A DNA stretch of 64,000 nucleotides from Pomacea canaliculata (taxonomy: Eukaryota; Mollusca; Gastropoda; Architaenioglossa; Ampullariidae). Shown here one piece after another: positions 25,350-64,000 of this stretch. The stretch covers positions 43,626,296 through 43,690,295 of the forward strand of contig NC_037590.1 in the NCBI RefSeq assembly GCF_003073045.1, read 5' to 3'. Position 1 is the stretch's first letter, and each line of letters starts with the position of its first letter. Made by a program: the position numbers and the translations under genes. The notes below the pieces were generated by a model. That model searched no databases. It worked only from the letters and a program-made list of their open reading frames with translations, and was not told the DNA's origin.

Positions 25350-28300
25350 ATGGGCATCCTCTGTGAGATTCTCTTGACTGTTGTTTCTATATCAGGTATT
25401 AGCCATCGAGTGTCCACATTACTTTCGTACTATTCTCTCTTTCTCTCTTAATCTTCTTTGAGCCCTTTTCGACAGTTTTGTATCAAACTATAGTTTTATT
25501 ATTAATTTTATGTCTGTAGATACACGTTTATTTGTCCATGAAACATTTTAATATAATACATTATTCAGTGCGACACTTGTTTTTTCTGTATTTGTTTACT
25601 TTACTCGTGTAAGGTATTGGTCGTTTAAACGATTTGTAGTCTTTAAAGAAGCTACACAAATTCTTTCCATTTTACTTTGGTCCACTCGTCCTTCTGTGGC
25701 AGTGAGTCAAGCTTACACCTGGACAAGCACCTCTCCCACCAACGGGAGTCTTCACTACGCATGCGTGGGCGACTCCGTGACACTCGCCTGGTCCATCGTC
25801 ACCACGAGTTCAGAGAGAGTCAATGATGTGGAATGGCTTTTCGTCGACGATAGTAAGCCCTCGTTGTATAGTAGTCTTGGTTACAGTACATAGCAGAACA
25901 AAACTCTTGTCCTACAGACTTCATTCTATCTCTTCCTTAAGTGATGATATTCTTCTATGTCTGCTATTCATGATATAGTAAAAAGTATATATATATTTAT
26001 AGATTCTGATTTGCTGTAATATTAATATCATAATAATATATAAAAATATATGTAAATGTATGTTTTATTTATGTCATTTTAATTCACACAGACGGAAATA
26101 CTGAGCTTCTGGCAACTTCTGTCATGGGCGAGGTTCTTCTGTCCCCATCTGCGCGACAGCGCCTGTCGTTCGTGTCCAACGCAGGGTTAAGGGTCAGCGA
26201 CATCGCACAAGAGGAGTTTGGACGATACATCGTTCGCGCCGTCATCACCACTGGTTCATCTTTTGTAGCTGAGGCGAGATACGTGTATCTGCGAATGCCC
26301 GGTAAGACAGCCATCAATACTCCTGAGTACCTCTAAACTAAGCTTTTCATTTTATTGTGTGTTTATGCAGCTTTTGAAAACACAAAACTACTTGAAATGT
26401 CTTTGATGTAATATTTAGGAGGAAAATCTCTAACAAATGTTCATGATGCCTACTGTTATTGAAAACAATAATCTAAAGTGCTTTCGTGTGTTTTCTCTAA
26501 TAGCATTTTCGTGATTTTGTTCTCTTTCCAGTTCCTCCGACAACCACAGACCGAATGTTGCACGCGCAAGTGAAGCCAACGCCCTGCAGCAGTCGGGAGG
26601 CTGGCACGTGCAGCTGGCGTGCGGCGAGTTTTCCTCCTGGGGATCTCTGTCTTTCTCTGTGCTGTGGAAGGTAAGTTACCTTTTCAGCAGCGAAAACAAA
26701 TGGTTAACTTCAATATTCGCTCCTCTGACTGAGGCTTTCATTTGTAATCTGATAAATCATTCAAACTGACTGACCACAAAAACAGATTTTTTTTTTCAAA
26801 TCTCGTGAAAAAAACTAGTCCAGTGTGAGAAACAAACTTGAAACATTATCTGAAACTATGGGCTCATGTTCATCATTTAACTTGCCACGTTTTAGATGTG
26901 GAGAAGTTTGGAAGAACATCAAAAAAAATGAGCAACTTTTTTGTTTACATAGACTTGTTCGTACGATGACAAATGCTTTCTTTTAAACTGTAAAATTATA
27001 AGACTTATTCAAAATAACCTTTCTTACAACCTTATAATCAGATAACTTTATTTATGTTATGAACTAATTATTATAACAGTAAAACACTGTTTTGCAGACA
27101 CCTTCAGGTCGAATACTAAGCAGCACTACCACGACGTACGGGGAGGCAACTTTGACGCTGGCCAACCCGCTAGAAGAGGGAAGCTACTCGTGTTTTCTGG
27201 ACATTCGTGACCCTAACGCCAAGTGTGCGTATGTCAGCCCCACCATGCTGGTCAGTAACGAGGTCCGTATAGACACGTGTACCGTCCAGCAGGCCCTCCT
27301 GGTCACCCCCCTGCAGCAAGAGAACGCCGCCCTGGTGGCCGCCTTGCAGGTCATCATGGGAGGCAATGGTGCGTAGCTGTCAGCCGTGTTACAGCCTTTT
27401 GTAACAGTGAATTCAGCAGTTGTAGATATGTCTTTTGTGGCAATAGTACAAGAAACACATAGACATATAACAAACATTAAACATACACACACACACATTG
27501 TGATATTACATTACGGTGTGTCGTATGGAATTAGAATCATGTTATTAGTAAAACTTTTTTTAATTAGCAGCGGACACATGTAAAGTTCTGCTATGAGATC
27601 AGCAGTTTATCTTGTATATTAATAAACTGGTGTGTTGTACATTTGCGTGAATAGCTCTCAAGGGAAGTCAGTAAGGACATGCTAAAAAGAGCGCAAATAA
27701 AAATAGAGGCTTTCTTAATGCAGTAAACAAATACTTTAAAAATAAACATTCAGAACAGGTGCGCCTTATGAACGGCACCCGACCATGGAATGGAAGAGTT
27801 GAGGTGAAGTATTACAACGGCACCTGGGGAACAGTGTGTGACGACAGTTTCTCTACTTCGTCTGCTGTTGTCGTCTGCAGAATGTTGGGACTGACCAGGT
27901 GAGTGGTGTCCTCTGCTGACCACAGGTTTGAAAGTTCATGACTTTGTTCACCTTTGCAGTGTAGAGTAAAGAAAGAAATTTTCTTAATATTTATTTAGTG
28001 CATGTAGCGGTCGGGCTTAAATGGTTTATGATAAATTTGCCAGCTGGAATTTTAAGGGTTCAACCGCTGTCTTCTTTCTAAAAATTATTTCCTCATTTGG
28101 CATAATGAATGAGGGAGTTACCATGTAGACAGTATAGTCATATTTATTATGTTGGAAACAACACAATTCATACAAATCTTAGTTTGTTTGGTTTTTTGGG
28201 GTTTTTTTTTTGTTTGTTTTTTTTGTTCGTTTGTTTGTTTGTTTGTTTGTTTGGTTTTGTTTTGTTTTGTTTTGTTTTTTGTTTGTTTGTTTGTTTTGTT

Positions 28301-28639
28301 TTGTTTGTTTTTTTGTTTGTTTTTTTTTTTTTTTTGGGGGGGGTACCGAATTCCTGTGTGATTGCGTTTGTATGAACACGACCTGTGATGAGCAATGTAG
28401 TCATCATGTCATTTAGATGTGAGAGTCACAGGTTGTTGTCTTTATTGACAGACAAACACCTGTCGTGTACAGCTCCGCATTCTACGGCGCGGGTTCGCTT
28501 CCCATTCTGCTGGACGATGTCACGTGTCTTGGCAACGAGACCAACATCTTTAGCTGCAGCCACAGACCGTGGTGAACACAACTGTGGTCACGGTGAAGAT
28601 GTCGGAGTCGACTGTTTGCCAAGCATCAGGACACATTAG
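25350..28639 (+). CDS. Gene A: secreted Ig-Ig-SRCR protein, 7 exons, two frame breaks
   Basis: Exons: 25350-25395 (signal peptide [15 protein letters not shown]), 25703-25852 and 26092-26301 (Ig1), 26532-26670 and 27098-27368 (Ig2 plus linker), 27754-27898 and 28452-28639 (SRCR). Ig1 has [12 protein letters not shown] and EEFGRYIV, so the usual B- and F-strand Cys are Trp and Val; the N-terminal Cys found in genes B-F is Ser here (VSQAYTW). Ig2 is canonical, with QLACGEF, VLWK and EEGSYSCF. The linker has [19 protein letters not shown], a short predicted helix. The SRCR domain keeps six Cys ([30 protein letters not shown]), which is group A. Exon 4 (one base missing after HAQVK) and exon 7 (after SHRP) are out of frame relative to the family; otherwise about 383 residues. 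Likely a soluble recognition protein. Confidence 0.85.
28193..28337. repeat. GTTT/T-rich low-complexity tract
   Basis: About 145 bases of GTTT, GTTTT and poly-T in intron 6 of gene A, ending in a G run. It produces spurious open frames on both strands. Confidence 0.95.
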
Positions 28640-29947
28640 ACAAACAACAAAAAAAATTGTTTCGCCCTTATCTCGTGGTCAGACATCCGTCTAAACATCA
28701 CGTGACTTTTCAGTCGTACGTGCAGCATGGAGTTGTTGACAAGAAACTATTACTGAGTGCTGAGTACACTACGCCTGTTATCTATGTATATCGTCTGTTG
28801 CTGATGTCTATGTTGTTTATATTCGCTGTGTCTGTGTCAGTGTGTGATGTCATTAAACTAGTTGGACAGACTGTCTATTGTCATTAACAAGGATGTTATT
28901 ATGTATTATATCTACAGCACTGCATGTAACCACACAACTACAGTTGCCCAGCTGTTGCTATGACAACATAAGCTAGATAAGGAACTCTCAGTGTGACCTC
29001 AGCACGTGGTGTAGACTTTGTACACAATCCACACATGTGAGCAGTGAACAGAGCAGTCTGTTGTACTTCACTCTCCGTCTGTCACATGACATCCTCTAAA
29101 CAAGGTCACCACGGACAGTTCACCAAACCAAAGTCCATCAAACCTGATAAATTTTGTTTATTTTTGTTATTAAGCAAAATATTAGTGAGCGAAAAGGACA
29201 AGATTTTTTTTAAACTTTGCACACGTTCTTTCAGTGTAGCTCCCGGCTACGGTTTGCCTGAATTCATTATCTGGGTCTGAGTAATGCACAGGTAATGTGA
29301 CAGGTTGGTGGCCTGTGAGTGTAAACATACCTCACAAATATTAAAGTCCTACACGTGTGCTATGAGTCACGAAGGAGTCTCTGTGACAATAAGTAATCAG
29401 TAGATGGGCACACAGACACATATCTACGTCTGTCCTTGTATACACACATACAAAAAATATTATTTCCACGTATTCTAAACTCCTCTACACCACACTGTGG
29501 AGGTTGAGGGAGTGGATGCGGTGTTGTCCACCTTCTCTCTCTTGTTGTCCACTCTCCAGGGTAAGGGTCACGTGTCTGTGTCGGCCCTTGATTCGAGTCC
29601 CAGCCCTCGCGAGGCCTCCAGTGCGTCTGGGTTCGTGGTAATCCTCACGGTAGCCGCTACAAAATACAATGTTAACCCTAATATCTATTCTATTCACTAG
29701 TTTCTCGACTGTTAGTATCTTCTATCATTTGTCTTCAGATGAATATATTTTTTGACATACCATTCTACTTCAACTAAAATAATCACAATATCCACTTTTG
29801 TATTAAAAAACACTTTCTTTATACTAAAAAGGAAACTTAAGAACTATTTGAGATCACTCACCCTTTACCCAGTAGGTAAAACTGTTCTTGGTCTCGTTGT
29901 CTGTCGCAGACTGAAAAGTGGAGTCATCAAGTGCTGCCTCACTCTAA
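28640..29947. other. Intergenic region between genes A and B
   Basis: No exon recognised and no AATAAA close to the gene A stop. It ends at the SINE at 29948. Confidence 0.45.
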
Positions 29948-30140
29948 GGGGGCGGTCACGTGGTGCAACGGTCAGCGCCTGTCACCAATACAGTGAGGGC
30001 GGGCTGTCCTGGGTTCAACCCTCGTCTCGGGCACGTGTTTCATTCACTGCATGTGGCATCTGTTTACATGACTGGTTGTCTTGCCCTGATATAGTCTTAG
30101 CTGCTGGCTCGGGGTAAAACACCATTTCTCTCTCTCTCCT
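29948..30140 (+). mobile_element. tRNA-derived SINE, full head
   Basis: The head has an A-box-like CGTGGTGCAACGG (about 29959) and a B box GGTTCAACC at 30012-30020, spaced as in a tRNA. A unique body follows, ending CTGGCTCGGGGTAAAAC and a CT-rich tail. Related bodies occur at 37811 and, as a fragment, near 58160. Confidence 0.8.
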
Positions 30141-30717
30141 CCCCCTACTCCACTCTCACTGTAAAGGTCATCCATTCTGACCCTTTCCCCCATTACGTGG
30201 TCTAAGAATTTAGTCAGGATTTTCTCACACCTGAGTGACTAAAACATTTTGGCATCAAAATACTGGCTTTCAGCATCATTTCCCCAAAATGTCGAATGAA
30301 CCTTCGGGTTTGATAGGCAATGAGGTCTACAGCACAGCTGAAATCAGTCAGAGCGAGGACTGTACATACAGATGTGGTCAGCAGTTCTGCAAGATATTGT
30401 TCTCGATAACAGCTAGAAGTTCACGAAATCGACAGCAGCTGGCACAGAGGTGGCACTGCCCTATATACTTGTATATATTTATCTCTGTGTGTATGTAATA
30501 GGTGAGGGCCATGTTCTGGCTTCCATGCGTTTCTGTGTAGGCACTGATAAGGACGAGATACTTTTTGCAAAAAGATAGGGAATTAAAATGCCACGAAACA
30601 ACATTGTTTCTATCTTCAAGCCATTGTCAAACGTGTGTCATCTTCAAGTATCATTTCAACAGAAAAAGGCCGCTGCAGGATTGTGTACAGTTCACAACCT
30701 TCATAAAAAAACTAAGA

Positions 30718-33700
30718 ATGAATTTTGCATACGGACTCGTCATTATCGCAGTCTCTACATCAGGTATTATTCTTTATTTATGTCTGTGTACTGATGTGTG
30801 TGTTTGCGTCTGTTTGTACACGTGTCTATGTGTGTACACTCGTACTCCCTCCATTGTAAACTAGCTTGTACGTCTGATGCTGTCTTAATATTTCTGGATC
30901 CTTCTCTCTCTCTCTTTCTTTCTCCTTTTCCTTTTCTGACGAGTCGGGTGGGGGAATTATCTGTTTGTGCCAAAGCTTAGGTTAGATAATTCGTTTAATT
31001 TCTCTTTTTTTTCTTTTTTTTCTTGTTTAGTAATATGTGGTGTAGGATGTTTCTATCTATACGTTTAACAGCTTATTGCACACAAGTGAGTAAATTTTTT
31101 TTCATTTTATGTTGTCATTATCATTAGTATTGCTCAGCACATTGCTAAACATGGTTACACAGCCACCTGAAACCCGTTTGCACACGGTCCTTAGTCATAC
31201 AAGCGGTTTTCTCTTGCCTAGAGAGAAGTGATGAACTGTATTCCACTTCGTAAGGCGGACGTTTTGCCGACGGACGTTTCGCCGCCGGACGTTTTGTCGA
31301 CTGGACGTTTCGTCTCTGGACGTTTCGGAGTCGGACATTTTGCCGACCGGCGTTTCGATGCCGGACGTTTCGCCGCATTATGTCAGAGAGAGAGAGTTTA
31401 CTTACTTCTCAAAGAATGAAAGTAACTACTAGATTACACAATAATTCTTTATTTCAAACAAATTTTACACACAGACTTCACAGACAGTTCACTTTGATTG
31501 TCACAGATTATGCGCAACAGCTTTGAGAAAAAACATTGATACAATGTGTGAGCTAACGGTTCACATGAGGAGGGATAGTGAGAGAGAGAGTTCACTGATA
31601 CATTGATACAATGGCGAGAGAAATGTGTGAGCTAACGGTTCACATGAGGAGGGATAGTGAGAGAGAGTTCACTGATACATTGATACAATGGCGAGAGAAA
31701 TGTGTGAGCTAAGGGGCGCCACACACTTGACTTCGGCTAAAGGTCCCGCGTGAAATGCCGAAATGAAGTGCCCCGCGCCCAAACGTCCGGCGGCGAAACG
31801 CCGGTCGGCAAAAGGTCCGGCTCCGAAACGTCCGGCGGCGAAACGTCCGTGTACCATTCCACTTGACATCAGTAAATACAAGTCGTTTAATTTTTCTTTT
31901 TATTATTGTTTTCTTGTTTAGTTATATGTGGCGGAGGTTGTTTAACAGCTTATTGCACACCAGTCAGTAAATTTTTTCTTCCTTTTATGTTGTCATTAGT
32001 ATTAGTATTGTTCAGCACATTGTCAAATATGATTACACAGTCAGACGAAAACCGTTAGTTGTTAGTCATACAAGGGATTTTCTCTTGTCTAGAGAGAAGT
32101 AATGAACTGTATTCCACTTGACATCAGTAAATACAAGTTCTATGTCGCAGTGTGTAACGGCTACTACTGGACACGAGACTCGCCCACCAACGGCAGCGTC
32201 TACCACGCGTGTGTAGGCGACTCCATCACCATTCCCTGGGCTGTCGTCACCTCCACCTTTGAAAGTGTCAACGACGTGGAGTGGTACTTCTCAGGTGAGA
32301 AAAGGCCGTTAGTGAGTGATGGAGGCTTTGTTCATTTTAAACAATGGACATAAAGTCTCTCCCGGCCTTGTCCACATCAACTGTATGACAGAAGGTTTAA
32401 AAATGTTGTAATTATTGTATCGCTTCTACTTTGCTGAAGTGGCATTGCGGCAACAATGATATTAATAAGAATGACGACAGACAGGTGTTGCAGGTTTACT
32501 CGACGAGATCCATCTCCTCAATCCCTTTAAAGATTTCTGTTACTTTATTTATTAGTAAATTGTCTCACTCATGATGTTTTCTGTGTGTGATTTTCTTTTA
32601 TATCATTTGTTGTAGCAGTGAAGACGGGAGGGAACATGGAGCATCTTGCCAGTTACATCAATGGCGACTTTTTTGTGTCCCACTCGAGCCGCAAGCGAGT
32701 GAGCTTTGTGACAAACGCAGGTTTGAGGATCAGCGACGTGACTCAAGAGGATTTCGGCGACTACATCGTCCACATCGTCATCAACAGCAATTCATCTTTT
32801 GTGACTGACTCCAGATACGTGTCTCTACACCTGCCAGGTAACACCACATCCTCCACGGTTCAGCTTACCATGAAGCCGTTTTCTTCTCCAGAAAAGATTT
32901 AGATGTATTTAGATGTATTCTAATTTTTGTCTGAAATAATTTTGTTTGAATTATTTTTATCTAAATATTTTTTCTCAATCTGCCATCATACGTTTTGTAA
33001 CGTGAAATCGACAAAAAGTGTTTTTTCTCTGATCACAGAGCCCCAAGCAGCTGTAGACCGACAATTACACGCTCGGATGCTAACGAGCGCCGTGCAGGTG
33101 TCCGGAGACTGGCGCGTGCAGCTGGCGTGCAGCGGGTTCGACTCTTGGGGCTCCCTGCTTTTCTCTGTTTACTGGAGAGTTAGTGACATTATTTACATTA
33201 TTCACTAACAAACAAACAACACGTTGACTTTTGGGCTTTAAAGTTGTACTAGACATCGTTATAACATTAGGCACTTACGATAATATCCAGAATTTAACGA
33301 CGAGCATAGTTTCTCATTATACGCGACTACAAACATTTTTATGAAGCTGCCAGTATTGAGTAATCAATGGTTGTCATGGCAATGACACCTGCCAGATACA
33401 GGAAGCTCAGGGCAGGAAGAAACAACATTAAGACTGAAGATTTAATGTTTTACATTGTCTATATTGTAGTGGTCACGTTCTTCATGAATTCAAAAGTCAA
33501 ACTGTCAATCTAAATATAGAACATATTTCTTACAGACTCCATCTGGACGATTTGTAAACAGTAGCATCTCCGGATTGGGCGAAGAAATGTTGACCTTGAC
33601 CAACCCGGTAGAGGAGGGCAACTACTTCTGCTACCTGGACATTCACGACCCCATGTCCAGGTGTGTCTACGATGGTCCCACCTTTGCGGTCAGCAACGAA

Positions 33701-34979
33701 GTGCACGTGGACAACTGCTCTGTGCAGCAGACGATTCTTCGTAGTTCGTTTGAGAAACAAAAAGCAGAACTTCAGCTTGTTATAAATAGAGGTACGTTAG
33801 TTATTGTGGGTTACTTTAGCCGTATATGGTGGGGGTGTTCTTATATAGCAAACCACCACTCATGCTTATATAAAGGTCATGACATGAAGCCAGGTGAATA
33901 AGGAATCTCTCCCTAGATGTCATGGCAAGCTAACTTATACAAGACCCTCTCGGTACCATAGTGGCAGGACTCTGTGTGTGTGGGGGCGCGTGTTTAACTG
34001 CTAGCGTGTGTGTACGACTCCTGACATACAAGCAAATACCGTATAAAGTGTAACAAAAGTTCATTTGTCTTACAGTGTACATAGTGTCCCACATGTATAA
34101 AAAAGTTCTCTCAAATTAGTCCACTGTGTTTCTTTGAATGTAGAAAGACTAATCACCGGAGTCGTATCCTCTGCACTGCTACAAACTGGAACAATTACAG
34201 ACACACAATGGTATGAATAGAGTTCAAGGGAATTTTCATATTTGTATGTAAGAATAGACTCAATCCGCCTTGTCGGCGGAAGTCGACCCTGGAGAGGACG
34301 AGTTGAAGTGTGGTACAACGGAACCTGGGGAACAGTCTGCGACGATGGTTTCGATGTGCGGTCTGCTGTTGTCATCTGCAGAATGTTACAATTTCACGGG
34401 CAAGTGATACTATCTGTTACATCATCATTGTACAGTTATAAGATTTAAACATATAGGACAAAGCTTCCAGTAGAAAGACTTCCATTATTCACGAGACCTT
34501 GGACTTAAGAGACATGGTCACTGGCTTACTGACCCAACCACTCAGTCTGCTACACCTGTCGCCTTACAGGCAGGTGAAGACAATTCGATACCACAGCAAA
34601 TAAGTATATCCTCCATAATTAATGATGGAAAGGCTACAAGACTTCGTGCGGGTGGATTTCATGTACATGTTTACGTGTTGCCCTACAGGAGTCCGAGTTA
34701 GCTCTGTTGTGTGAATATGAGAGTTATTGTGATTAATATATGAAAGTTCAAGTTCACTAGTGCATTATTTAAGTATGTGTTGTTGTTGTTGACAGAGAAA
34801 CTCCTGTTGTGCACTCATCCGCGCACTATGGCGAGGGTACGTTGCCGATTCTACTGGACGACGTGATGTGCAGAGGCAATGAAACGAACATCTTGGACTG
34901 TACCCACAGTCCCATCGGTGTCAGCAACTGTCGTCACAATGAAGATGCTGGAATCGACTGCCTGCCGAGCATTAAATAA
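30718..34979 (+). CDS. Gene B: secreted Ig-Ig-SRCR protein, 7 exons
   Basis: Intact frame of 377 residues. Exons: 30718-30763, 32151-32294, 32616-32837, 33039-33178, 33536-33791, 34258-34399, 34796-34979. Exon 1 (46 bases, as in A, C, D, E) encodes signal peptide [15 protein letters not shown]. Ig1 starts VCNGYYW and has [12 protein letters not shown] and EDFGDYIV; Ig2 has QLACSGF, VYWR and EEGNYFCY. The linker has [10 protein letters not shown] followed by a charged helix ([14 protein letters not shown]). The SRCR domain has WGTVCDD, VICRMLQ, DVMC, LDC, NCRH and IDCLP. Intron 6 has a GC donor (CACGG then GCAAGT). N-glycosylation sequons NGS (Ig1), NGT and NET (SRCR) fit a secreted protein. 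Near-identical to gene C in Ig1 but not in SRCR. Exon 3 could start 3 bases later. Function is inferred from architecture. Confidence 0.93.
30992..32138. repeat. Tandem duplication of about 275 bases in intron 1 of gene B
   Basis: The segment from CGTTTAATTT to ATTCCACTTGACATCAGTAAA plus TACAAGT is present twice (30992-31248 continued at 31865-31883, and 31884-32138). Gene C has it once. The first copy is split by the foldback element. The second copy ends at the real exon 2 acceptor region. Confidence 0.8.
31249..31855. mobile_element. Foldback / Mutator-like non-autonomous DNA element with 9-bp target duplication
   Basis: A 607-bp insertion flanked by ATTCCACTT at 31240-31248 and 31856-31864. 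Both ends are built of short units of the form CCGGACGTTTCGCCG in inverted orientation (31255-31376 and 31770-31850). The middle holds two to three copies of a unit of about 75 bases (31530-31710). It is absent from the matching intron of gene C. A 9-bp duplication with long repetitive inverted ends fits Mutator-like elements, but no transposase is present, so the superfamily is tentative. Confidence 0.75.
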
Positions 34980-36660
34980 ATCTGGATTAGAAACAAAGAA
35001 ACACATGAATGTTTAGTTGGCCTGCCTCTCTCACCGACACGCAAGGTAACCATACATCAACTTGTCAACACTATAATAAAAGTGATATATGAGGACATTG
35101 TTAACAAATATCTCCATCTTTGAAATTATTATTTTAATCTGAAATGGAATAGGACTGTATACCTTACTACTTGAAAATAAATGGATGGGTTTTGCTGGGT
35201 GGCTTTGCGTCACAAATGTTTTATTTCTTCCAGCGAGTGAGTGAGTGCTTATTTTTCCTTTTCCAAACTCAGCTCACGCCCCCTTCCCCCACATAGTCTG
35301 CAGACTATCGTCTAAACACGAAAAAGTAAAAGTGGCCTGAATGTTTAAAAGGTCATCTTTTGCTTACGATGTGTGGTAGACGCGTCACTTCCGCTCTCTT
35401 TTAACTGGCGCATAAGACGACTTCCGGCACAAACTTGCTGCCCTGCCAGTCATGGAGTTAGCACGTGTTATCACTGACGATAGGGACGAGAACCTGATTG
35501 AGGACATCATCTCTACCGGTACACCTCACTTCACTACAAAGGAATTAAATTGGAAAAGAACGGATGTCCTGAGGTTTAGCCAATGGCAGTGACTTGTACA
35601 CAAATGACTGAGCTTTTAAATGCTGCATTTATTTTCTTGTATCCGAAGCCGTAAACAAAAAACAAAAAAAGCACTTCACAGATTCGTGAAACGTTGAATC
35701 AGGAAAGCTATTGTCTGAGGTTTGTGGGCCTCCATTTTATTGAGTAGCTGAGACATTTCCATAGAAGATAAGTATCTTTATTCGCGATGACAAAACTGAA
35801 AAGACACTTTGCAACCTCGACTTGATATAGTTATATCAGGAACTGCAGTCATGTGATCCAACGGTGGTTGAGGACTGAGGTGTGAGATCCCCCAGTTTTC
35901 TCGAGGGACATCTTGTTTGTCAGAGCGATTCCCTCTCCTCCCTGCATTTTTCTCTATGTTGATTCATGTTCATTCCACAGTTGTCAACAACGAGTAGTCT
36001 TAGTGTGTGATGCTGTTGTATGGGCAGGTGTTCGTGCATGAGTGAAAATTTTAGTGAAAGGACGGAAAAAAGAAAAATAAGATGTTTTCTCTAAGTGTAA
36101 ACAGATGCAGCATATATTTTACATTATAAATCAATTGTAAATAGTCCTCTTTGACTGAGGTTGACCTCTTGTGGTGTAGGCAGAGCTTAGATAAAGAGAG
36201 GCCACTCGTGACCGCAGGGAAAACTCGTCGGTTAGAGTTATCGTTCGTAACGTGATGCTAAGAATCGACATGACACCAGCAGGCAAGGCGATCGTCTGAG
36301 GCAAGGTGGACAATTTTGTTCTGCAATTAACTGTCAGATCGCCAGGTTTAAATTAACCTCAAAAGAAAAACGTTTCCACAATTTCCCAAAGAGAGGTAAG
36401 CTAGGAATTTATTCTCAAACTACGATCCATAAGTGTACTGTAGTTGAGAGCAGTCTACTACAACATGGTCGCTTTCTTTACTATGATTATTAAAAAGACT
36501 TGATTGATTATACTGTGAAACTGTGTGATGAATTCTCACTTATCTGATTGCAAACCTATTTAAATTTGTTATAGTATTATCATTTAAGGCATTCGTCACT
36601 GGGGTGAGGTGTTATAAAAATATTTGTTATCAATATATTGAATAAATCATTACACAACAG
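34980..36660. other. Intergenic region downstream of gene B
   Basis: Holds the gene B 3' flank, with AATAAA at 34976 (overlapping the stop) and at 35176, and the tail of the segmental duplication. No exon recognised. A 60-residue open frame on the other strand near 36131-36313 has no recognisable domain. Confidence 0.45.
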
Positions 36661-38334: not shown

Positions 38335-39556
38335 TGTAACGGACAACTGCGTAGTAGAGGGGGCAAGACGGGATGGGGGAAGGTTGACATCCGGTGTTGA
38401 CGGTTTGTTTTTAGAAAATGCTTGCGACGCAATTCAGCGAAGACCACGTGCGGGACAGGCAGTGCTGACACCTGGTCTAGAGAGACTGGGGTGGTTATAT
38501 TTAAGCCCGACCATGAGTGGCCAGGGGGGCGGCTGATAAGAATTTGGTGGATTTGTGGTTTTAATTCACCGACTCGACGATCTCTGTGGACGTGATACTG
38601 TGTATGTATTACGGGAGAAGTACTTTGTGGTTGTACTATCTCTGTGGACGTAATAATATGTATGTATTACGGGGGATCTACTTTGTGGAAGTACCATCTC
38701 TGTGGACGTGATACTGTGGCTGTATTACGGGAGAAGTACTTTGTGGTAGTACCATCTCTGTGGACGTGATACTGTGGCTGTATTACGGGGGATGTACTAG
38801 TGCCGATGTACTACTGTGGATGTACATCGTGTTTCTTTACTCCTTATCATCGCCGTGGGAGCTCTGTGGTGAGAGCAACAGGCCGTGCAAAGTCTTGGGG
38901 GCCAAGAAACTGCACACCGACGTGGGCGAGCAGGAGCAGTAGACTCGGAGTAGGGAGGGGGCTACCCTGCCCTTCCTTACGCGGACGTACCGACCACCAC
39001 CAGGGAGGGTGCCTGGTCAGCTGAAACTAACCGCCGGAGGAGGGATGGTTTCCCTCTTAGTTTTATCCCAGCTGCATATTGTTCTACCCCGCCTGACAGT
39101 AACATATCGGTATGGTAAAAACACTCTTTTATCATTTATTGAACTGTAGAAGAAAGGATTTAAGTGGACTAAAAGAAACCAGGGGACTGGAGAGCTGCAG
39201 GGACTAAACGGTTATTAACATGTTGAACTTTGATGGTGTGTTATTATTGCAATTCTTCATTTGTTGCCGTGTGGATTCCGGCTGAGTGACATGTTAAACT
39301 TTGATGGTGTGTTATTATTGTAACTCTTTAAATTGGTGCCGTGTGGATTCCGGCAGTGACTTGGTAAACTTGGATGGTGTGAACGTGATGGAGTGTTATT
39401 ATTATTGACTGTGGATTACTGTGCATATTTTGTCTACTTGTAAACTTGTGTTCGGTTCTAATAATTATTGGTGCCTCTAAGGAGGGACGCCCACCCTTAA
39501 GCGATCTTATATTGGTTTTTGGAAAGAATGCGCATGTCTGCGGATGGTCCGTGACA
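38335..39556 (+). mobile_element. Solo LTR, probably Ty3/gypsy-type retrotransposon fossil
   Basis: A 1222-bp sequence starts TGTAACGGAC and ends GTCCGTGACA, flanked by the 5-bp duplication GTGTT (38330-38334 and 39557-39561). The matching site in the B block is empty. Internally there are nearly four tandem units of about 58 bp (38580-38800) and a second pair of units of about 72 bp (39216-39370); a TATATTTAA promoter-like motif lies near 38497. No internal genes or second LTR are present, so it is the remnant left by LTR-LTR recombination. The insertion is probably younger than the B/C duplication. Confidence 0.85.
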
Positions 39557-39774: not shown

Positions 39775-43074
<3,300 letters not shown>

Positions 43075-44325: not shown

Positions 44326-51158
<6,833 letters not shown>

Positions 51159-53047: not shown

Positions 53048-56000
53048 ATGATGGTATCCGCTTTTATGATTCTCGTTGTCTGCTTTTTACCAGGTATTGT
53101 TTATTAATGGGACTGTCTGTATGTGTGTGTGTGTGTGTGTTTTCTGGGTAAATGTTTCCACGCTCAACCATTGGATGTGTCTCCTTCGACTTCTTTTTGG
53201 ATCCTTTTTTATCTCTTCCTCTAGTTTTAATCTTTTGTTCATTTTTCGACTTCTTTGCTTGAAAGTAATTATTCCATTAATTTTTTTTTCTTTCACTCAA
53301 TAATATTTACATATTCTTCAGTCTCATGTTAATTTAAATTTCTCCTTCACAATGTTCTTCGTGAAAAATTGTAGAATTTTCTCGAAACATTAAAAAATGA
53401 TTTCATGAGTTGAACATATGAAATAGCAGACTTTTCTACTAGTCTATTAACATTAATAAGATCTTGATAATTATTTTCGAAATGTTACTTTTGAAGTTGT
53501 AAATAATTAATACTAATTAACAAAGATGTTGAATACGGGAATAGAAAGTCCTTTATAAGTCTTTTAAAGTCGGTAAGTTGTTTTTGTCAGCGTGTTACGG
53601 GTACACGTGGCTGAGTGGAGCACCCTACAACGGCTCTACCTACTACTCGTGTGTGGGCGACTCAGTCACCTTTCCCTGGGCCATCATCCCCATTGCTTCT
53701 GAAAGAGCTGAGCTGGAATGGTCCTTTAGAGACAATGGTACGTCTGATTGTCCGCGTGCGCTCGTGTACGTGAGTGTAAAAAAAAAATGTGTGTGTGGTT
53801 TACTGTGTCAATGGCAAATAATGTGGAAGTCAATGCCTAACCCACATCCATCGTATTAATCATCGTTAATACAACAGATAATCTACGTAAGATACATCTA
53901 CATCCTACTTAGGCAAAGCATATTTTACCTGTCGTACACAATCTTCTGCTTCTCTGGTAGACACAACAAGAAATTGTTTCTAGGATATATGTCTACGTTT
54001 TTATACAGTACACGAAGGTTATGTACAGATGCATGTCTATATCTATGTATGTTGTACATGTTTTGATTTGCTTTGTATGTTTACGAAGATGGCAATTCAG
54101 AAGTTATTGCAACATACCTCAACGATGAGTTTCTCGTGCCCCACTCTTCACAGCGAACTTTGACCTTCGCTGGAAGTGTGGGCCTTATAATCAGCAACTT
54201 AAAGCACGAAGATTTCGGCGAATACTCAGTTCGTGTTATCATCAACGGCTTCATTACTGAGACGAGATACGCTTACCTGAGACAACCAGGTAATCAAGTA
54301 ACCATGTAGATAATACACAGTTATTTGTGGTAAACTATAAAATACATTTTTTTGTGTTCAAGTATTTTTCGTAAGCTTTCTTACACTTTGTTGATCAAGC
54401 ACCGTGCATTTTTTTTTAGACAAAGCATCACAACACCCTTGCAAGCAGACTACAAACACTACACAGAAGTCGGGGAGTTAAAATGTGTTTAAATCAGTTA
54501 ATTTAACATCCAATTCTGTAAGCTGGCCTCGATTGTTCCCATGGTTGCAGATCCTCCGAGGACGGACGACGACCGGCTGCACGCGCGGATGTTGCCCAAC
54601 GCCATCTTCAGCTCCGGGGAGTGGCAGGTGCAGCTCGCGTGCGGTTCGTTTTCCTCCCGGGGCTCCTCATCTTTTTCTGTGAAATGGAAGGTTGGCTACT
54701 TTTTACATTAGTTAAATGTCGGTGTAATCAAATATTTTGTATTCCTATAGAGGTCGCCACTATAAGCTGACAAATTCGTGTTAACCCTCTCACGGCCGTG
54801 AACTTTTTAGAGCTTTGACCACAAATGGTTCATAAGGATCCCAAAACTATTTTGCCATTCGTTTCATGATGAAAATGCAAATTTTTTGCAGATATTTGAA
54901 AATTCATTTCATCCACGATCAGTTCACCACTAAAAGTGTAAAAGCTAAGAAATTTCAAATTTCAAATAATAAATGGTTTGCATTTTATAAATAGCGAAAT
55001 TTCGGTTGGGGTCCGTATGGTGAAGACAAAAAAACTTTTCAGTTATGACAATGACCAACATTAATAATCCCAATGACCAATTTAAACATGGGGAAAGTGC
55101 TCGGTTACTATATGCAGACTACAATATTCATACACACACCATCTCTCTCTACACACACACTAAAGCCGTCGGATACACGTGTTAGCACATCTCCTAGTTG
55201 TGACACTTGAGTACAAAGCACGTGGATGTCAACTAAACCTCGCACATAGATGACTGGCGTTAGTAAACATAACAGTAATCATCGGTGACAGAGTATATCA
55301 TGTATCACTGGTAGCAAAACCACATGCCGTGGGGACTCACGTATATATATATCACAATCTAAACAACATACAGAGAGTAAGAAACTCATCCGCAGATATG
55401 AAAATTAGAAAATTTCAGTGAAAAGCAGTTTCCCCTAAAAGTAAAAAAAAAAATATTCCAGGCATTGTGGAATAGTCATAAGGAAATGACAATACGTTGA
55501 TGTCACTGACTTAATAGAGTGATAGAGTATTTTGTTAGACTGTGAGGCTGTCATTTTAATGTGTTGTGTGAAGAAGAGGACTTGGAGATGACTTCTGTTG
55601 TACACACTTAACTAGTTTATTCTAAACCTTGCGTCTCTTGACAAACTTTAATTGTTGTTGTAGCACTGTGACAACTGTTTTACAGACACCTTTAGGTCAG
55701 ATACTGGACAGCGACATTTCCGCAGACCACGACTACATTTTGAAGTTGAACAACCCTTTAGAGGAGGGAAACTACTCCTGCTTCATAGACCTCCACGAGC
55801 CTGCTGCCAGGTGTGCGCATGTCCCACCCACCATGCTGGTCAGTAACGAGATTCACGTAGACGAGTGTTCGGCACAGAGGGCGCTGTTCAGTTCAGCCAA
55901 GCGTGAAATCCAGGAAATCACATCCATCTTCCAACAGTTTGTAAATCTAGAATCTGGTAGGTTACCTTCAAGTACTCGGGTTTGTTTCCACAGTGTCACT

Positions 56001-57885
56001 GTATGAATGCAGTTTACCAAGTTTACATAACGAGATTTAGTGTGAACAGGGATTTGTTCTACAAGGCTAATAATGTGTTGGTCAAAATATATGTTTGTGT
56101 TTGCGTGTATTGATGTAAATGTATGTAAGTAAATGCAATTTTGTGTGTGAGATAGAGAGAGAAAAAAACAGAGATTATGATTAATGTTACAATGAGCTAT
56201 TATTTAGGTTACATTTAAATTTGTTTCGTAGGAAATTAAAACAGTTAATCTTATCCTACTACATGTGCACTAACCACAAATACGGAGGAAGGTATTACTA
56301 TTACTTACTATTGTTGATTATGTCTTGGCTGTGAGTTCTCCCTTGTCTGACCGATAAAAAACTTCAGACAGATGCTCAGAGACATAGAATATCATCTCAA
56401 CTAATTCATTCCACGTGCTATGCTCTTAATAAGTTCCACTGGCCGTGATGATGTGTTAGCCAGGTGACCAAACGCAGGAACCAACTGTACCTACTGTTAC
56501 TGTTATTAAAAACTGTACTCACTGGTAGTCAGTATGTACATGTATGAACTCAGCAGTATATTTCTAGTGCTTGAACAACTGTAAATCTTACCTGCAGTTG
56601 TCCTCTGGAATTGAAAAGTTGTATTGTATTGTGTTGACACTGTGCGCCTTGCTGGAGGCAGCAGACCGTGGAATGGAAGACTTGAAGTGAAGGTGAACGA
56701 CACTTGGGGAGCGGTGTGCAGCAGCAACTACTACTCGTCCCTTGCCCTTGTTGTCTGCAGGAGTCTACGACTCAAGCGGTGAGAGTTTGTATGATATGAT
56801 ATGATGCTCTTATACGACCCCACCACCCTGTACATCTTTTTGGAAATAATGGACAAAATCCATAGTCTGTAGTAATGTCTTCCAGTCTGTAGTAATGATC
56901 TTCTGTTATGAGTGGAATAAGACAAAACAAGGGAGTGATGGAGATTGGGAAGGATAAAGAAGTCAGAATTTTTAATTATTACTGAGATGCTCCTGATTTA
57001 AAAATCCTTTATGGAGGGCTTGCTGATAAAAACATACTAATTATTCGAGAAAATGTACACAGAAGAATTTAAGCAAATTTCACTCAGCATGTAGAGCAGC
57101 TCATTCTTTCAATCATGATGGTTGATGTCTCGATTGCTATCACACTAACTCGGCTGTTTAATCACGTGGGTGGACTTCCAGATTACGAGACACTGCTTCT
57201 TTTTGTTATCATATAATACTGAAGGCATTGTGGTAGCAAATTTAAATCTCCTCTCCAATTTAGTACAGAATGGACAGTTTGTGGACTAATGTCATATCTT
57301 TATTAACATTTTTGTGAATATTTAAAAATAGTAATACAGAAGACTAACGTAGTTAAAATATTGTAGTTTGCTTGATGAGAATTCAGTTTCAAAACGTTTA
57401 AAATCTGCGAACAACAAACACCTGGCTATGAGGTGTGTGTCAAGGTTAAATATCTTTATATTTATTAAGTTGTTTGAGATGGTGAACTAGTCATCATGTG
57501 TGTATGTGGACGGACAAGTGTTTGCATGTGTGTACTGCTCTAGTTATTTTAACGTGCATGGCTGCGCGCGCGTGTGTGCGTGTGTGTATGTGTGCTTGTG
57601 TGTGCGTGCGTGCGTGCGAGAGAGGGAACGGTTTTGTGTAAGTGCGAGAGGTTTACTTCCTTTTCACTGTTATCTTTCTTATCTGACAGAGATGCAAGTT
57701 ATTCCCCGCAAGTCAGTATCGGCACAACGTACGGCACGAGCACGTTACCGGCTCACATCGGATACATTACCTGTAACGGCGATGAAGACAGCATCTTTGA
57801 CTGCTCCATCACCTACAACGGTCAATCCTGTTATCGCTACTACGATATCGGAGTGGACTGCTTGCCGAGATTCACACTGAATTAA
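53048..57885 (+). CDS. Gene E: secreted Ig-Ig-SRCR protein, 7 exons
   Basis: About 386 residues. Exons: 53048-53093, 53591-53737, 54089-54289, 54551-54690, 55686-55956, 56619-56778, 57690-57885. Starting at the first of two adjacent ATGs gives the family's 46-base exon 1 (MMVSAFMILVVCFLP). Ig1 has ACYGYTW, YSCVGDSVTFPW and EDFGEYSV; Ig2 has QLACGSF, VKWK and EEGNYSCF. The linker ends in a helix (AKREIQEITSIFQQFV). The SRCR domain is unusual: WGAVCSSN replaces WGTVCDD, and the second half has YITC, FDC, SCYR and VDCLP, so all six Cys are kept while the acidic pair that often binds metal in SRCR domains is lost. The exon 6 acceptor is uncertain: the better-looking TGCAG at 56597 leads to a stop, so the weaker GAAAAG at 56618 is used here. 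Confidence 0.85.
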
Positions 57886-58154: not shown

Positions 58155-58255
58155 GGAAGGTTGGTTGTTCTGGGCTCAGCACGGTGTTGTTTCTTTTCAT
58201 ATGGCATCTGTTTACAGTGCTGGCTCGGCGTAAAATACCAGTTCCTCTCCAGTCT
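58155..58255 (+). mobile_element. SINE fragment, same family as 29948
   Basis: Shares GGCATCTGTTTACAG and GTGCTGGCTCGGCGTAAAA with the body and tail of the SINEs at 29948 and 37811, with a deletion between them and a degraded B box. Confidence 0.6.
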
Positions 58256-58265
58256 ACCTTGTAAT

Positions 58266-58840
58266 CTGTCTGTTCCTCACTGTAGCGTGTATTTTATCTC
58301 ATCACTTTATTATACAACAGCGGTGTGTAATTCGCTTAATTTATGTTTGTTAAGAAGAAACATTCTGCAGTATGTCAGTTTATGCACCACTGTTTGGTTC
58401 TGTCGTAGAATAAAATTATTATCTGCTATATTGGATAATTATGTTTTTTATGAAGTATTATAGAATGTATTTTAACTAAATGAAAGGAATAAGTAAACCT
58501 TCTCGAGTGAAAATGCTCATTATATCAAAGAACCATACAAATCTTATTTCTGAAACATGTGATCCTTATCTTATGAATGCATCTTCATCCTGGTCTTGAA
58601 AGTGCACACAGGTTGCTGATATGAACCAGTGATTGACACATTGCCTGAGTGAGCGATAAAGCAAGTCAGACACGAGTAAAGAAATATCTTCCTCAATCAT
58701 AGTCTGTCCTCAGCTAAGCTCCTTGCAGTTTACGATGTTGATTTGGTGGGCAATACACCCGCCATCTTTACCTCCTTCTCTACGAGGTGCGCCTGCTACA
58801 CTGACAGACTGTCCGGACAGGACAGCAAACGCACAATGAG
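58266..58840. repeat. Upstream duplication block of gene F (matches 51457-52110)
   Basis: Counterpart of the block upstream of gene E, about 75-80 percent alike by eye. The F flank is longer because a second SINE, a pogo-type MITE and a second promoter-like block lie between it and the gene. Confidence 0.75.
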
Positions 58841-59084
58841 CGCAGGCGAACGGCGAGAACGCACACTGGCAACAGTATATGTAAACTGACTTGTCTACAA
58901 TGATTCTTATAAACAGTTTATTTAAATGTAGTAATTTTAGACATCAAGACAGGTGCATGTGTGCCCAAAGCTCTGTCTTCACGAATGACTAGGACACAAC
59001 CACCTGTATTTAATAGAAAAAGAGTTCAAAGACATCATCGCTAAGAGGACAATACTGTTAGGAGGCAGACACGCACACACGGTG

Positions 59085-59165
59085 AAGCAGATAGCGAAAA
59101 TGGTTAGAACAGTGTATTCCGAAACCCTGTAATGTGCCGGTTCGATACCCGCAGTTGTAATAAGT
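59085..59165 (+). mobile_element. tRNA-like SINE head, second family
   Basis: An A-box-like TAGCGAAAATGGTTAGAAC at about 59092 and B box GGTTCGATACC at 59139-59149 are spaced as in a tRNA. The sequence does not fold into an obvious intact tRNA and differs from the SINE at 29948. The tail is not defined. Confidence 0.6.
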
Positions 59166-59768
59166 TGTGGTAGGTCGTGTATTGTTTACAGTACGAATGG
59201 TCTCTTGTGTCTGACGTCTTGTGTGCGTCATTTGTTTTACGTCACTTACACCAGAAAAAAACGTCATACATAAGAGAATTTGCTCTCAAAATGGCCAACT
59301 GAGCGGGAAAACAACGGCGTTCGTCCGCCATCTTCTTTATGACTCTCTCAGTGACCTTCCTCAGAATTTGTGCCTCTTGGATTCCATTCATCTACAAATC
59401 TCTTTATCCTGATCGTCATCTTATCATGTTCGTCTTGTGTATGTGATACGTCATGCATATGTAAGGTAAGTGTACGTTCGTCGTATTACATAACCGTATT
59501 GTGCTTCCCCTACATCATCAACCCAGCTGTTAAATGGATGGAGAGTAGGAGAAGGTAAAGTAAGGAAGGAAAAGACATGCGTGCGGTTTGTCCCGAGAAA
59601 AGCTCTGTCGTGAACATTTTCCTCCATAGCGACTGACTGGGGACTGACATTTCCGTTATCTGATATTCCTCCATCTTGGCAGGACATAGTACAGCCCGTA
59701 GCCTTACACTCTCTCCAAGGTTTACCTCAAGTTAATTTTTGTAAGACGCCCTGCTAATGTTGTAAATA

Positions 59769-59866
59769 CAGTGGAACCTCGGTTAGCGAACGCCTCGGAT
59801 AGCGAATATTTCGGATAACGAACAACTTTCCAGAACGGATTTATTTCGTTAACCCAGGTTCCACTG
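59769..59866. mobile_element. pogo/Tigger-type MITE flanked by TA
   Basis: A 98-bp element begins CAGTGGAACCTCGGTTAGCG and ends CGTTAACCCAGGTTCCACTG, with TA on both sides (59767-59768 and 59867-59868). Inverted ends starting CAGTGGAACCTC with a TA target are typical of pogo/Tigger elements of the Tc1-mariner group. No coding capacity. Confidence 0.85.
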
Positions 59867-60015
59867 TACTTGTCCATTAGCTTAATATGTTTTCTCCTGT
59901 AGTCTTGCTCGTCAGACCACATTTACTGCCAAGATTATTCGCCATATTCTGCTTTTCGCTGAATGATAATCCATCTGCCATTCATCTTCTTTCTCTGATG
60001 GCCAAAACAAAATCA

Positions 60016-60106
60016 TCACGATATCCACCTTATTTGATACTAACCACAGAACCTTATTCTTATTTGCAGATTTGTGTGTGTGTGTTTATGCGTGAGCTGA
60101 AGATAA
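60016..60106 (+). promoter_or_regulatory. Extra copy of the promoter block upstream of gene F
   Basis: TCACGATATCCACC followed by GAGCTGAAGATAAAG, about 85 bases apart as in the proximal block, but 620 bases before the gene F ATG. It looks like a duplicated promoter whose downstream exon 1 has been lost. Confidence 0.45.
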
Positions 60107-60399
60107 AGTCTATTCGGTTGCAGCACGATGTCAGGGATGTAAGTAGCTAGGAAATGTCTAAGCAGCCAACACTACATGACCAACTCTTGCAAACGCTGAC
60201 CTAAAGTCGATTAATTTACGGAAGACACCCTGCTGATGTCGCAGGTATTCATCCTTGAGGACGAGACAGTCGAATATGTTTTTCTCTAATATTCCTGTTC
60301 TTTAAATCATTTTACTGAGGACATTACACGACAAATTTCGATTTTAGTTGAGTAACGAACCACCTGCTGGTTATCTTCTGTTTAGGACAAAAAAACTCA

Positions 60400-60484
60400 T
60401 CACGACGTTGACCTCAGTTGGCATTTTATTTTTAGACGGACATGTTTGTAGGTGTGCTTGTATGTCTGCGCGAGCTGAAGATAA
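60400..60484 (+). promoter_or_regulatory. Conserved upstream block of gene F
   Basis: TCACGACGTTGACCTCAGTT starts 238 bases before the ATG and GAGCTGAAGATAAA lies about 160 bases before it. Confidence 0.55.
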
Positions 60485-60637
60485 ATCTAAGTGGTTTCAG
60501 CTGGATGTCAGAGATATAAGTAGTTAGGAACATTGCACTATGTTCAGTGTTTTGGTCGCCTTCATCTAGTGGACTGTGTATTATCTTTAAAATACACCCA
60601 CAACTTCTGACAGTTCTCACCTCACAACAAAGTGCTG

Positions 60638-63600
60638 ATGATGGCATTTTCCTTCAAGATTCTCACCTTTGTCGGCTTTTTCTCAGGTATTAACACTGTG
60701 TGTGTGTGGTTGGTGGAGAGACACTTGTTGCCTTGACCGGTTTCTTTTCCGTGATACACTTACAGCTGCTGGCTTGGGGTAGGAACCCACCCAACACCCA
60801 AAACCTTCCCTGTCCTCTCACACTTGACTGAATGGTGTGTCTTACAAAATGTTTGCTTCTTTCTATTTTTTTTTTTTTTTTTTTTTGTACCATTATGTTT
60901 ACAGCTTTGTTTTGCTTCTTGTCACAGACACTCGAGTTAGACTACCCTAAATGTAGAATCCTGAACAGTTGAACGTTCTTTTACTTCGCAAAAAACAAAA
61001 ACGATTAACTTTTTTGCACGCCTGTCTATATTTAAGTATAGTAGCAAACAAATGGCAAAATACTTAATAAATTTCTGCGAGAATTGTTGAAATAAAGCTA
61101 ATTCTTAATATACATCGTGAAAGGTACTAATTACTAAGTATTAATCGTATATAAGATATAAATACACTTCCTCTCAAAAGTAATCGTAGAGATGTTCTAT
61201 TTAAAATGAGTATATTTGTCGTTTTCTCATAAAGCATGTTACGGGCACAGCTGGTCGACTGGAGCACCCTCCAATTTCACTATTTTCTATGCTTGTGTGG
61301 GCGACTCAGTCACCTTTCCCTGGGTGCTCACCCTCTCTAGTACTGAGAGAGTGATTGATATGGAATGGTACTTTGCACCGAACGGTAAGACTTACTTTTA
61401 TACTGGTAGTTCTGTGAGTAAATTTAAAATGCTGGAACTGACGGACATTTGCATGTAACTGGCTGAAGACTCAACTGTCCTAGTCTTTGAGCTTTTGACT
61501 GATTGTCAACGTGTTTGCATGAGCGGAATATAAAATAATGAAGAATATGCTATACTGTGTGTGCTTGTATGACCTTAGAATGCATCAGGGTAGTTTTTGT
61601 GTATAACACTTTCAACTATTAGAGAACAACACTCTGTAAGAAGCATAACTTTTGTTGTTCTTCTTCATTGTTATTATTATTGCTGCTTTAAGAAGGGAAT
61701 TGTAGAATCTCTAATACAAAAAAGTTTTCTCATTGCTGATACTTTCACGTTTTGAATACTTTGTTAATGTGACTAAATTTTAAAATGTAATAGAATCTAG
61801 ACATATGACGGATAGATGCTAGGTGGCTATCACTGAGATAAACAAGTAAAGTTTAGCTGTAATTAAAGGTGTTTACCCTGTAAGGGAGACAGGAAGTGGA
61901 ACACGTGAGCAAGTTAACTTTCTGACCAAATTTTACCTTCGATGACAAAAGAGATACCGCTTTCGAGGTAAACCTATGCTAGTGGGTAGGGGATTTCCCG
62001 TCGATAATAATGATAATGATAATGATAATTTGAGAGTTTTGATTTCTGAAGTAAAAAAATAAATGCACGTAGACATAAACAGTTTAACTCAACAGCTGAA
62101 CATTATGTTTGTATACATAATACAAATGCAACACACACATACACTACGTATACAACAAAAAAAAAGCAGCCACACACACACTCACAGAAAGGAAGTTATG
62201 AAAGAGAGAAAACTACCAGCTACTAAAAGTAGTTCCGGAAAAGATGGGCTTAAAGGCCAGACTTAAAAGCATCATAGCATTATGAGCGTCTTGCCCTGCT
62301 ATAGCAATATATATATATTATAATTTATTGCCATGTATTTTACATTGTTATAAATCTATTCTTTTTAATTTTTCATAATTTTTCCATAAATTAAATAAAA
62401 TAGGTATGTTTCCTTTATTTTTGCGAAGCAGTTTATGATCCTGAAACCATTGCAACGTACGTGGACGGTAGGTTTCTCGTGCCCCAGTCCACTCACCAAC
62501 GTTTGTACTTTGCGGAGAATGTCGGCCTCACCATCAGCAACCTAACGCACGAAGACTTTGGAACATACTCAGTTCGTGTTGACATCAGGAGCGGTTCATC
62601 TTTTGTATCTGAGGTGATATACGCAACTCTGCATCAGCCAGGTAATAAAGCTCTTAAGCACTGTATAAGTGAACATAATCGTTACTTGTGAACATATAAG
62701 CGTTGTTTGCTGTGTGTGGCGAGAACTTGATTCTTCGTAACTCTCTTTTCTTATTCCTAGATGATTATGCTGTTTTATACGCACTTTTTTCATTTTCTAA
62801 ACATAGTATCAAAGAGACGTTCAATGAAGTTATCAAAAATAAAAATACTGCATTAAAACAGTGATTTAATATTAAAAATAATAATAATAATGTGACCATC
62901 ACCACCAAGATAGATGGCACTCTGTGCACAGGCCAATAATGATGATAAAAGATAAAAGCCAGTAGACAGTGAGGTACGTATAGACATACTAAACAACATC
63001 AAGATGAGGTACATGATAACAGTCAGTGAGAAGTGAGGTACACACACAGACACAGTAAACAACATAAAGATGAGGTACAAGAGTACAAGGTAAAGTAATG
63101 GATGAAGGGATGTAGATACTATATACAGTGTAAGATGGAGTCGTTACATGGTGATTAACATGACAGACAGTATTGCCAGGGAGTTAATATAGTAACTCAG
63201 GGATAGCGCTTTGTGGACAGATGTGTTTTCACAGAGCCTGTGAATGTAACCTTGTAGTTTGAGTGGCGAATGTAATGTGGACGAGAGTTTACATCCAATT
63301 CTCTAAATATGACTTTGATTTTCTCCGTGATTCTAGTTCCTCCTACAACTGAAGACGAGCTGCTGCACGCGCGGATGTTGCCGAATGCCGCGTTCAGCTC
63401 AGGGGAGTGGCACGTGCAGCTCGCGTGCGGTAGATTTATCTCTGTGTTTTCTACGTTTTTCTCTGTGAATTGGAAGGTTAGTTACTATATACATGAAGTA
63501 ATTAGATACTAGTGTAATATGTTTTTATTCCTTTAGAAGTCATGAATTTAAGTCAGAAATTCTTTAATTAAACAATCTTAGAAAACGAAATAAATAAGTA

Positions 63601-64000
63601 ATTGTGCAGGCTTGTCAAACTCAAGAAACATTTCAGTCAAAAGAACTAATTTCAGACTAAGATGTCAAATTATCGAAGTCAAAATTTCCGGATACTGAAT
63701 AATCACAAAAATAGCAAACATGTGATTTATGTAGCTATTTCCAATGTTACTATATTCCCAATGCGCTTTACAAAACTAATAAAATATCAATACAAATTGC
63801 ACATAGTGCACATAGAAAGAAATACCTTATCAACCATAGTGAAAAGACAGAAAGGATGATCAATATAATGCCACAAGACAGTTGAAGTAACTCGGACACT
63901 CAAGAGAAGATATGAATGTCGTTATAAACTGTGAGGCAAATGACACGAGGCAGCTGTCCTGTGTAGACACTAAAGACAACAGCTGCAAATCTTTCAGGTG
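60638..64000 (+). CDS. Gene F: secreted Ig-Ig-SRCR protein, first four exons, runs off the window
   Basis: Exons seen: 60638-60686 (signal peptide MMAFSFKILTFVGFFS; the second ATG at 60641 would give the family's 46 bases), 61235-61384, 62429-62641 and 63337-63476. Ig1 has [19 protein letters not shown] and EDFGTYSV; the first half of Ig2 has LLHARMLPNAAFSSGEW, QLACGRF and VNWK. Intron phases match the family. Closest to gene E by exon 4 sequence and by 5' flank. The second half of Ig2, the linker and the SRCR domain must lie beyond 64000; I found no exon 5 in 63477-64000. The exon 3 acceptor could be 3 bases further on. Confidence 0.87.
62945..63145. repeat. Interspersed repeat shared with 12171-12272
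   Basis: In intron 3 of gene F. It has two or three internal units around GTGAGGTACGTATAGACA and ends with GTAGATACTATATACAGTGT, parallel to the copy in the protease region. Confidence 0.7.

Follow-up and report, generated by a model that had tools for sequence, protein, structure and literature searches.

The stretch of DNA analysed here (the window) covers 64 kb of the genome of the snail Pomacea canaliculata (C1:43626296-43690295; 440,159,624 bases in 24 contigs), contains no N, has a GC content of 40.6% and is eukaryotic in character. It carries six copies (c1 to c6) of a gene in which an ATG-initial short hydrophobic exon is followed by two exons for a first immunoglobulin (Ig)-like domain (Ig1), two for a second (Ig2) and two for an SRCR domain, with a short variable linker between Ig2 and SRCR. 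An original prediction, made from the sequence of the window, had described six such copies, five of them complete; the number of copies and the domain layout hold, but the complete intact copies number four (c2 to c5, all clean seven-exon genes), as c1 has two frame breaks. The predicted start of c1, at base 25350, was borne out, and so was the identity of exon phases between copies: the junctions follow the order 1,1,1,0,1,2 in c2, c3, c4 and c5, and 1,1,1,0 in c6.

Table 1. Gene copies of the array in the window and the c2/c3 identity breakpoint (positions within the window)
Feature	Position	Strand	Description
c1	25350..28639	+	degenerate; exons 25350-25395, 25703-25852, 26092-26301, 26532-26670, 27098-27368, 27754-27898, 28452-28639
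c2	30718..34979	+	intact, 376 aa; exons 30718-30763 (putative signal peptide), 32151-32294 and 32619-32837 (Ig1), 33039-33178 and 33536-33791 (Ig2 and linker), 34258-34399 and 34796-34979 (SRCR)
c3	39775..43074	+	intact, 376 aa, nearest to c2; exons 39775-39820, 40346-40489, 40821-41039, 41255-41394, 41761-42016, 42484-42625, 42891-43074
c4	44326..51158	-	intact, 385 aa, inverted; exons 51158-51113, 50821-50672, 49471-49262, 47687-47551, 47121-46848, 45935-45785, 44515-44326
c5	53048..57885	+	intact, 386 aa; exons 53048-53093, 53591-53737, 54089-54289, 54551-54690, 55686-55956, 56619-56778, 57690-57885
c6	60641..63476	+	exons 1-4 of 7: 60641-60686, 61235-61384, 62432-62641, 63337-63476; window edge cuts the rest
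c2/c3 identity breakpoint	33791..33798		7 bases past the Ig2b exon end

Splice sites were picked by hand, giving models of seven exons for c1 to c5 and four for c6 (Table 1), and the reading frames of the four intact copies run over their full length without a stop. At these sites the donor is GT in 32 of 34 cases and GC in the other two, while all 33 acceptors are AG; both GC-AG introns, with the donor GCAAGT, follow the first SRCR exon (SRCR1), in c2 (34400) and in c3 (42626), and the SRCR1 acceptor of c5 has a weak pyrimidine tract. All seven exons are present in c1, where the frame is broken in the first Ig2 exon (Ig2a; 139 nt, against 137 or 140 in the other copies) and in the second SRCR exon (SRCR2), breaks that may reflect an assembly error. 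For c6, matches to the remaining Ig2 exon (Ig2b) and to the SRCR exons lie beyond the window, on C1 from 43690760, 43691811 and 43692713. When exon profiles were compared with the 2811 open reading frames (ORFs) of at least 15 aa in the window, they recovered Ig1a, Ig1b and Ig2a exons six times each and Ig2b, SRCR1 and SRCR2 exons five times each; these are self-matches, with Ig2a and SRCR2 of c1 each matched in two frames, and the same comparison revealed no further copy in the window, the next best match having an E-value of 0.025.

The C-terminal domain is readily recognised. In c2 to c5 the Pfam SRCR model is matched with 61.7-100.9 bits (cut-off 26.1; E 8.8e-17 to 5.4e-29), and a PDB profile search shows similarity to solved SRCR structures, for example those of CD163, DMBT1 and MARCO. 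Group A SRCR domains have been defined by six Cys and two coding exons (PMC3100851), and this is what c2 to c5 possess (residues 296-371 for the six Cys of c2), a six-Cys domain of group A having been predicted. Both of the predicted Ig-like domains were likewise found, Ig1 being unusual in that it has no Cys at the usual B and F strands; it carries instead two Cys upstream of strand B (residues 17 and 36 of c2), the equivalent of Cys 17 being lost in c1, the Ig1 of which shows a Cys-to-Ser change. Its Pfam V-set match is weak and passes the cut-off in c6 only, and its highest-ranking PDB profile matches are JAML (E 3.6e-6) and SLAM family member 6 (E 1.3e-5), followed by titin and numerous variable domains of antibodies. 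A Cys loop is present in Ig2 (residues 167 to 215 of c2), together with two more Cys, and a comparison of the Ig1 and Ig2 profiles with each other found nothing. The linker falls to 20-24% identity among c2, c4 and c5. In the part of the protein that follows residue 20, hydropathy averaged over 19 residues peaks at 0.96-1.26 in c2, c3, c5 and c6, and at 1.65 in c4, where the peak lies inside the SRCR domain.

The window carries the 5' portion of a tandem array in the germline. A genome search with the Ig half of c2 returned 125 matches at E <=10, among which 15 Ig modules lie on C1:43.652-43.805 Mb (~155 kb), 14 of them on the plus strand, so that the proposed tandem family extends far beyond the window, with c4 inverted between the plus-strand copies c3 and c5. 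One more, weak, minus-strand Ig match is found at C1 43.737 Mb (E 0.001), and several of the modules beyond the window (among c7 to c15) contain stops inside the matched stretch. It could be argued that the Ig exons and the SRCR exons belong to separate adjacent genes, a reading we regard as highly improbable and have rejected, since every intact copy, including the inverted c4, preserves exon order, strand and phase compatibility, and an SRCR1 match follows on the same strand behind all 15 array modules (14 in the genome SRCR search, that of c6 found separately). SRCR2 was seen behind at least 14 of the 15 (12 in the genome search, c5 in its gene model and c6 separately), the tenth module having none among the matches listed; these exon counts are lower bounds because the best 150 of 1187 candidates were scored.

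Outside the array, the best Ig-half matches per contig are on C14 (E 1.9e-15), C2 (3.3e-10), C3 (0.002), C9 (0.12) and C7 (2.2). A second Ig-Ig-coiled-coil-SRCR locus, L022, occurs on another contig (C2:25166500-25170500), and the SRCR and Ig matches over C2:25.11-25.17 Mb suggest about three genes; at C7:13892838-13896231 an SRCR2-type match lies 3 kb downstream of the very weak Ig match (E 2.2), and the two may mark one more Ig-SRCR gene. Very large SRCR clusters are located at C1:7.75-7.99 Mb, C1:3.01-3.07 Mb, C13:13.77-13.84 Mb and C11:12.6-13.5 Mb, in a search that gave at least 197 matches with the best 150 of 1496 candidates scored.

The relatives of the Ig module were explored in ten genome stretches around the clusters outside the array. 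As these stretches were picked by their tblastn match to c2, some profile match was to be expected, and the information that they provide lies in the exon order and in what comes downstream. The order Ig1a-Ig1b-Ig2a-Ig2b was present in eight of the nine stretches profiled on the match strand (weakest Ig2a domain E 0.0065); the tenth stretch, L021, shows Ig1a, Ig1b and Ig2a and is then cut off, and L025 has Ig1 exons only, with fibrinogen downstream by Pfam. The Ig exon profiles match two loci with C1q by Pfam (L019, E 7.7e-13; L026, E 5e-16), one with fibrinogen by Pfam (L027, E 5.3e-39) and the SRCR locus L022, also confirmed by Pfam (E 1.9e-26). Inspection by eye added broken-up C1q-like frames in L020, including a 35-aa piece without Pfam match, and fibrinogen-like exons in L024, and it recognised no C-terminal domain in L023 and L028, to which Pfam was not applied. 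As controls, none of the 125 c2 Ig-half matches falls inside the large SRCR clusters (C1 3.0 and 7.8 Mb, C11, C13). A second control used eight 3.3-kb SRCR stretches (826 ORFs), which do not extend far enough to include an Ig1 exon lying several kb off: at E 0.05 no match to Ig1a, Ig1b or Ig2a was obtained, and a single Ig2b match had E 0.037.

These data support homology between the Ig1-Ig2 module of the window and that of C1q-bearing (QREP-type) and fibrinogen-bearing (FREP-type) loci of the same genome. Because the module is common to these loci and none of its matches falls in the large SRCR clusters, SRCR occupies the position held by the lectin domain in QREPs and FREPs, which agrees with the original prediction. 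In a tree of 13 modules (leaving out c1, c6, L021, L025 and the second partial module of L026) the SRCR-bearing set stands apart from the others with an ultrafast bootstrap of 80; a single gain of SRCR is compatible with this tree, which is unrooted. A constraint of SRCR monophyly has a likelihood equal to that of the best tree and carries no information on this point.

The copies have diverged unevenly along their length. In the compared stretch 32061-35000, which gives 2776 aligned positions, divergence between c2 and c3 is 4.1% as far as base 33798 and 17% from there on, with a log-likelihood gain of 64.6 for the breakpoint (Table 1), against 11.3 for the largest of 500 shuffles. Past this point the divergence amounts to 16.6% in exons and 17.1% in introns plus flank; since introns and exons are alike affected, the pattern expected from gene conversion or unequal exchange, the break that parts the Ig half from the SRCR half is, to judge from the alignment, conversion-like. 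Selection alone was considered as the cause of the SRCR divergence and was ruled out, given that the introns diverge equally. For the nine other pairs among c1 to c5, dN/dS calculated across the full length of the compared protein is 0.21-0.55, dS being high in several and reaching 2.7, and for the Ig1, Ig2b and SRCR trees of c1 to c5 none of the three topologies was rejected in any case. The first intron of c2 also holds a segment of ~0.9 kb (31171-32070) that is missing from c3 and contains GC-rich 15/30-bp and 77-bp tandem repeats.

A second difference among copies concerns cation binding. In SRCR8 of DMBT1, six residues have been reported as the cation ligands of sites 2 and 3 (PMC7043408); placed by motif and spacing, without structure alignment, all six are kept in c2 and c3, five together with an N-to-D replacement in c4, and none in c5, while by eye c6 has none of them either. 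The SRCR domains of c5 and c6 are identical at 65 of 106 residues and, with a dN/dS of 0.52 (Fisher p 0.013), are under purifying selection; the loss being common to both copies and their SRCR so constrained, they look like a kept cation-less subclass rather than the product of decay. This subclass, in which an SRCR without the cation residues seems nevertheless to be maintained, would be the clearest case for the view that the array encodes regulators or adaptors of other humoral factors, such as other variable-immunoglobulin-and-lectin (VIgL) proteins or complement-like proteins, instead of direct microbe binders, a view that the low linker identity noted above would also fit. We consider this unlikely for the array, in which c2 and c3 retain the full set of residues and the replacement in c4 is an acidic one.

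With regard to known systems, the original prediction knew of no described family with this plan, a statement that has to be withdrawn. A lectin of P. canaliculata with two Ig domains and SRCR, maybe exclusive to Caenogastropoda, is credited in PMC9178244 to Gorbushin 2019 (Dev Comp Immunol 94:35-58); its domain plan, likened here by its description in that citing text, is the same as that of c2 to c5, in the same species, and the Ig-Ig-SRCR plan is accordingly already in print. The same study is credited in PMC10672478 with QREPs, which are C1q-related proteins that begin with Ig domains, and with the expansion of this group in Caenogastropoda. The likeness of the array to QREPs and FREPs was drawn from loci of the same genome: a homologous Ig1-Ig2 exon module precedes C1q in L019, L026 and, by eye, L020, and occurs in the fibrinogen loci L027 and, by eye, L024, but the array genes end in SRCR where QREPs end in C1q and FREPs in fibrinogen. 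In addition, a Cys loop, which the Ig1 of the array lacks, was required for calling an IgSF domain in PMC7588048. DMBT1/SALSA, CD163 and MARCO share SRCR similarity with the array, and DMBT1 also the cation residues kept in c2 and c3; as described in the source consulted, however, DMBT1 is of group B, usually with eight Cys and one exon per domain, unlike the single six-Cys, two-exon SRCR behind two Ig domains found here. As for VIgLs, the models of c2 to c5 combine N-terminal IgSF with a C-terminal recognition domain, and within this genome they have a homologous Ig module in common with the C1q- and fibrinogen-bearing loci, but SRCR takes the place of fibrinogen, C-type lectin, galectin or C1q; whether genes ending in SRCR should formally be included among the VIgLs is a matter of nomenclature. 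Bona fide FREPs have been restricted to Heterobranchia by some authors (PMC8878817) and allowed in Caenogastropoda by others (PMC12074976), a disagreement on which the Ig and fibrinogen loci L027, L024 and L025 of this caenogastropod bear. In the open-access literature, covered in part, no description was found of the 15-module array, of the conversion-like breakpoint at which the Ig half of c2 and c3 gives way to the SRCR half, or of the cation-less c5/c6 subclass.

Taken together, the array probably comprises SRCR-bearing relatives of the gastropod VIgL genes that encode secreted humoral recognition proteins. Judging from family and residues, each gene would give rise to a secreted protein with a signal peptide, a V-set-like Ig1 without the usual disulfide, an Ig2 with a Cys loop, a helix-like linker and a group A SRCR. 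The SRCR of c2, c3 and c4 could then mediate divalent-cation-dependent binding of anionic ligands on microbial or parasite surfaces, the Ig half and linker could serve assembly, including oligomerisation, or contact with partner proteins or hemocytes, and as a result the targets may be agglutinated or opsonised; in c5 and c6 a different surface would serve for binding. Duplication would diversify the copies, as would conversion-like exchange splitting the Ig half from the SRCR half.

Several observations weigh against this interpretation: i) the N-terminal hydrophobic stretch is short, with a best 19-residue mean of 1.23-1.38 in c2, c3, c4 and c6 and 2.13 in c5, the signal peptide having been judged from hydrophobicity; ii) Pfam and PDB matches of Ig2 are weak (best PDB E 0.01); iii) the SRCR exons of c2 and c3 diverge at the intron rate, with a dN/dS of 0.88 (p 0.72) that is not distinguishable from neutral; iv) a C-type lectin search (best 150 of 360 candidates) listed no match in these clusters, and CREP-type genes were not seen there; and v) SRCR proteins of other snails serve other ends. 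In the latter respect, a Littorina oviduct protein combines SRCR with TSP1, and in one species also with a C-type lectin (PMC8614816), and the scaly-foot snail has up to 65 tandem DMBT1-like SRCR genes expressed in scale epithelium and mantle (PMC7142155). The array might by analogy encode secreted proteins of reproduction, egg fluid or shell matrix that contain SRCR and Ig modules as mere building blocks and were duplicated in response to secretion demand, not immunity, but this appears improbable: the available parts of those reports describe no Ig domains in the Littorina or scaly-foot SRCR proteins, and the Ig module of the window is common to C1q- and fibrinogen-bearing loci, QREPs and FREPs being tied to immunity in the literature consulted. 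A more far-reaching version of the recognition-protein interpretation, which we put forward as possible though doubtful, is a two-tier receptor system within one 15-module array, with a calcium-dependent c2/c3/c4 type and a conserved cation-independent c5/c6 type, in which the Ig and SRCR halves would be exchanged separately among paralogs and recognition and effector halves would thus recombine in the germline.

The remainder of the window holds other features. Upstream of the array, four tandem trypsin-like serine protease genes occupy 1760-23320 on the plus strand (~1.76-3.6, 8.1-10.4, 14.0-17.0 and 20.3-23.3 kb), eight of their ten exon pieces match Pfam Trypsin, a motif scan did not find the His motif of the third, and a spare last-exon fragment lies near 23.86 kb. 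A reverse-transcriptase-like fragment with a YADD motif (50313-50555, minus strand) is contained in an intron of c4, and a 58-bp tandem repeat of 3.8 copies (38580-38798) separates c2 and c3. Rfam and tRNA scans of the window found nothing, and searches for relatives in bacterial/archaeal and viral collections gave 16 and 22 pattern matches, respectively, with none confirmed.

In conclusion, the same two-Ig module is, by sequence, joined to C1q, to fibrinogen and to SRCR within one genome, and because of these three partners the exchange of the C-terminal domain downstream of a shared Ig module seems to be a pattern that recurs in this snail. The array provides concrete genes with which the recognition of microbes and parasites may be studied in a snail, an animal without antibodies.

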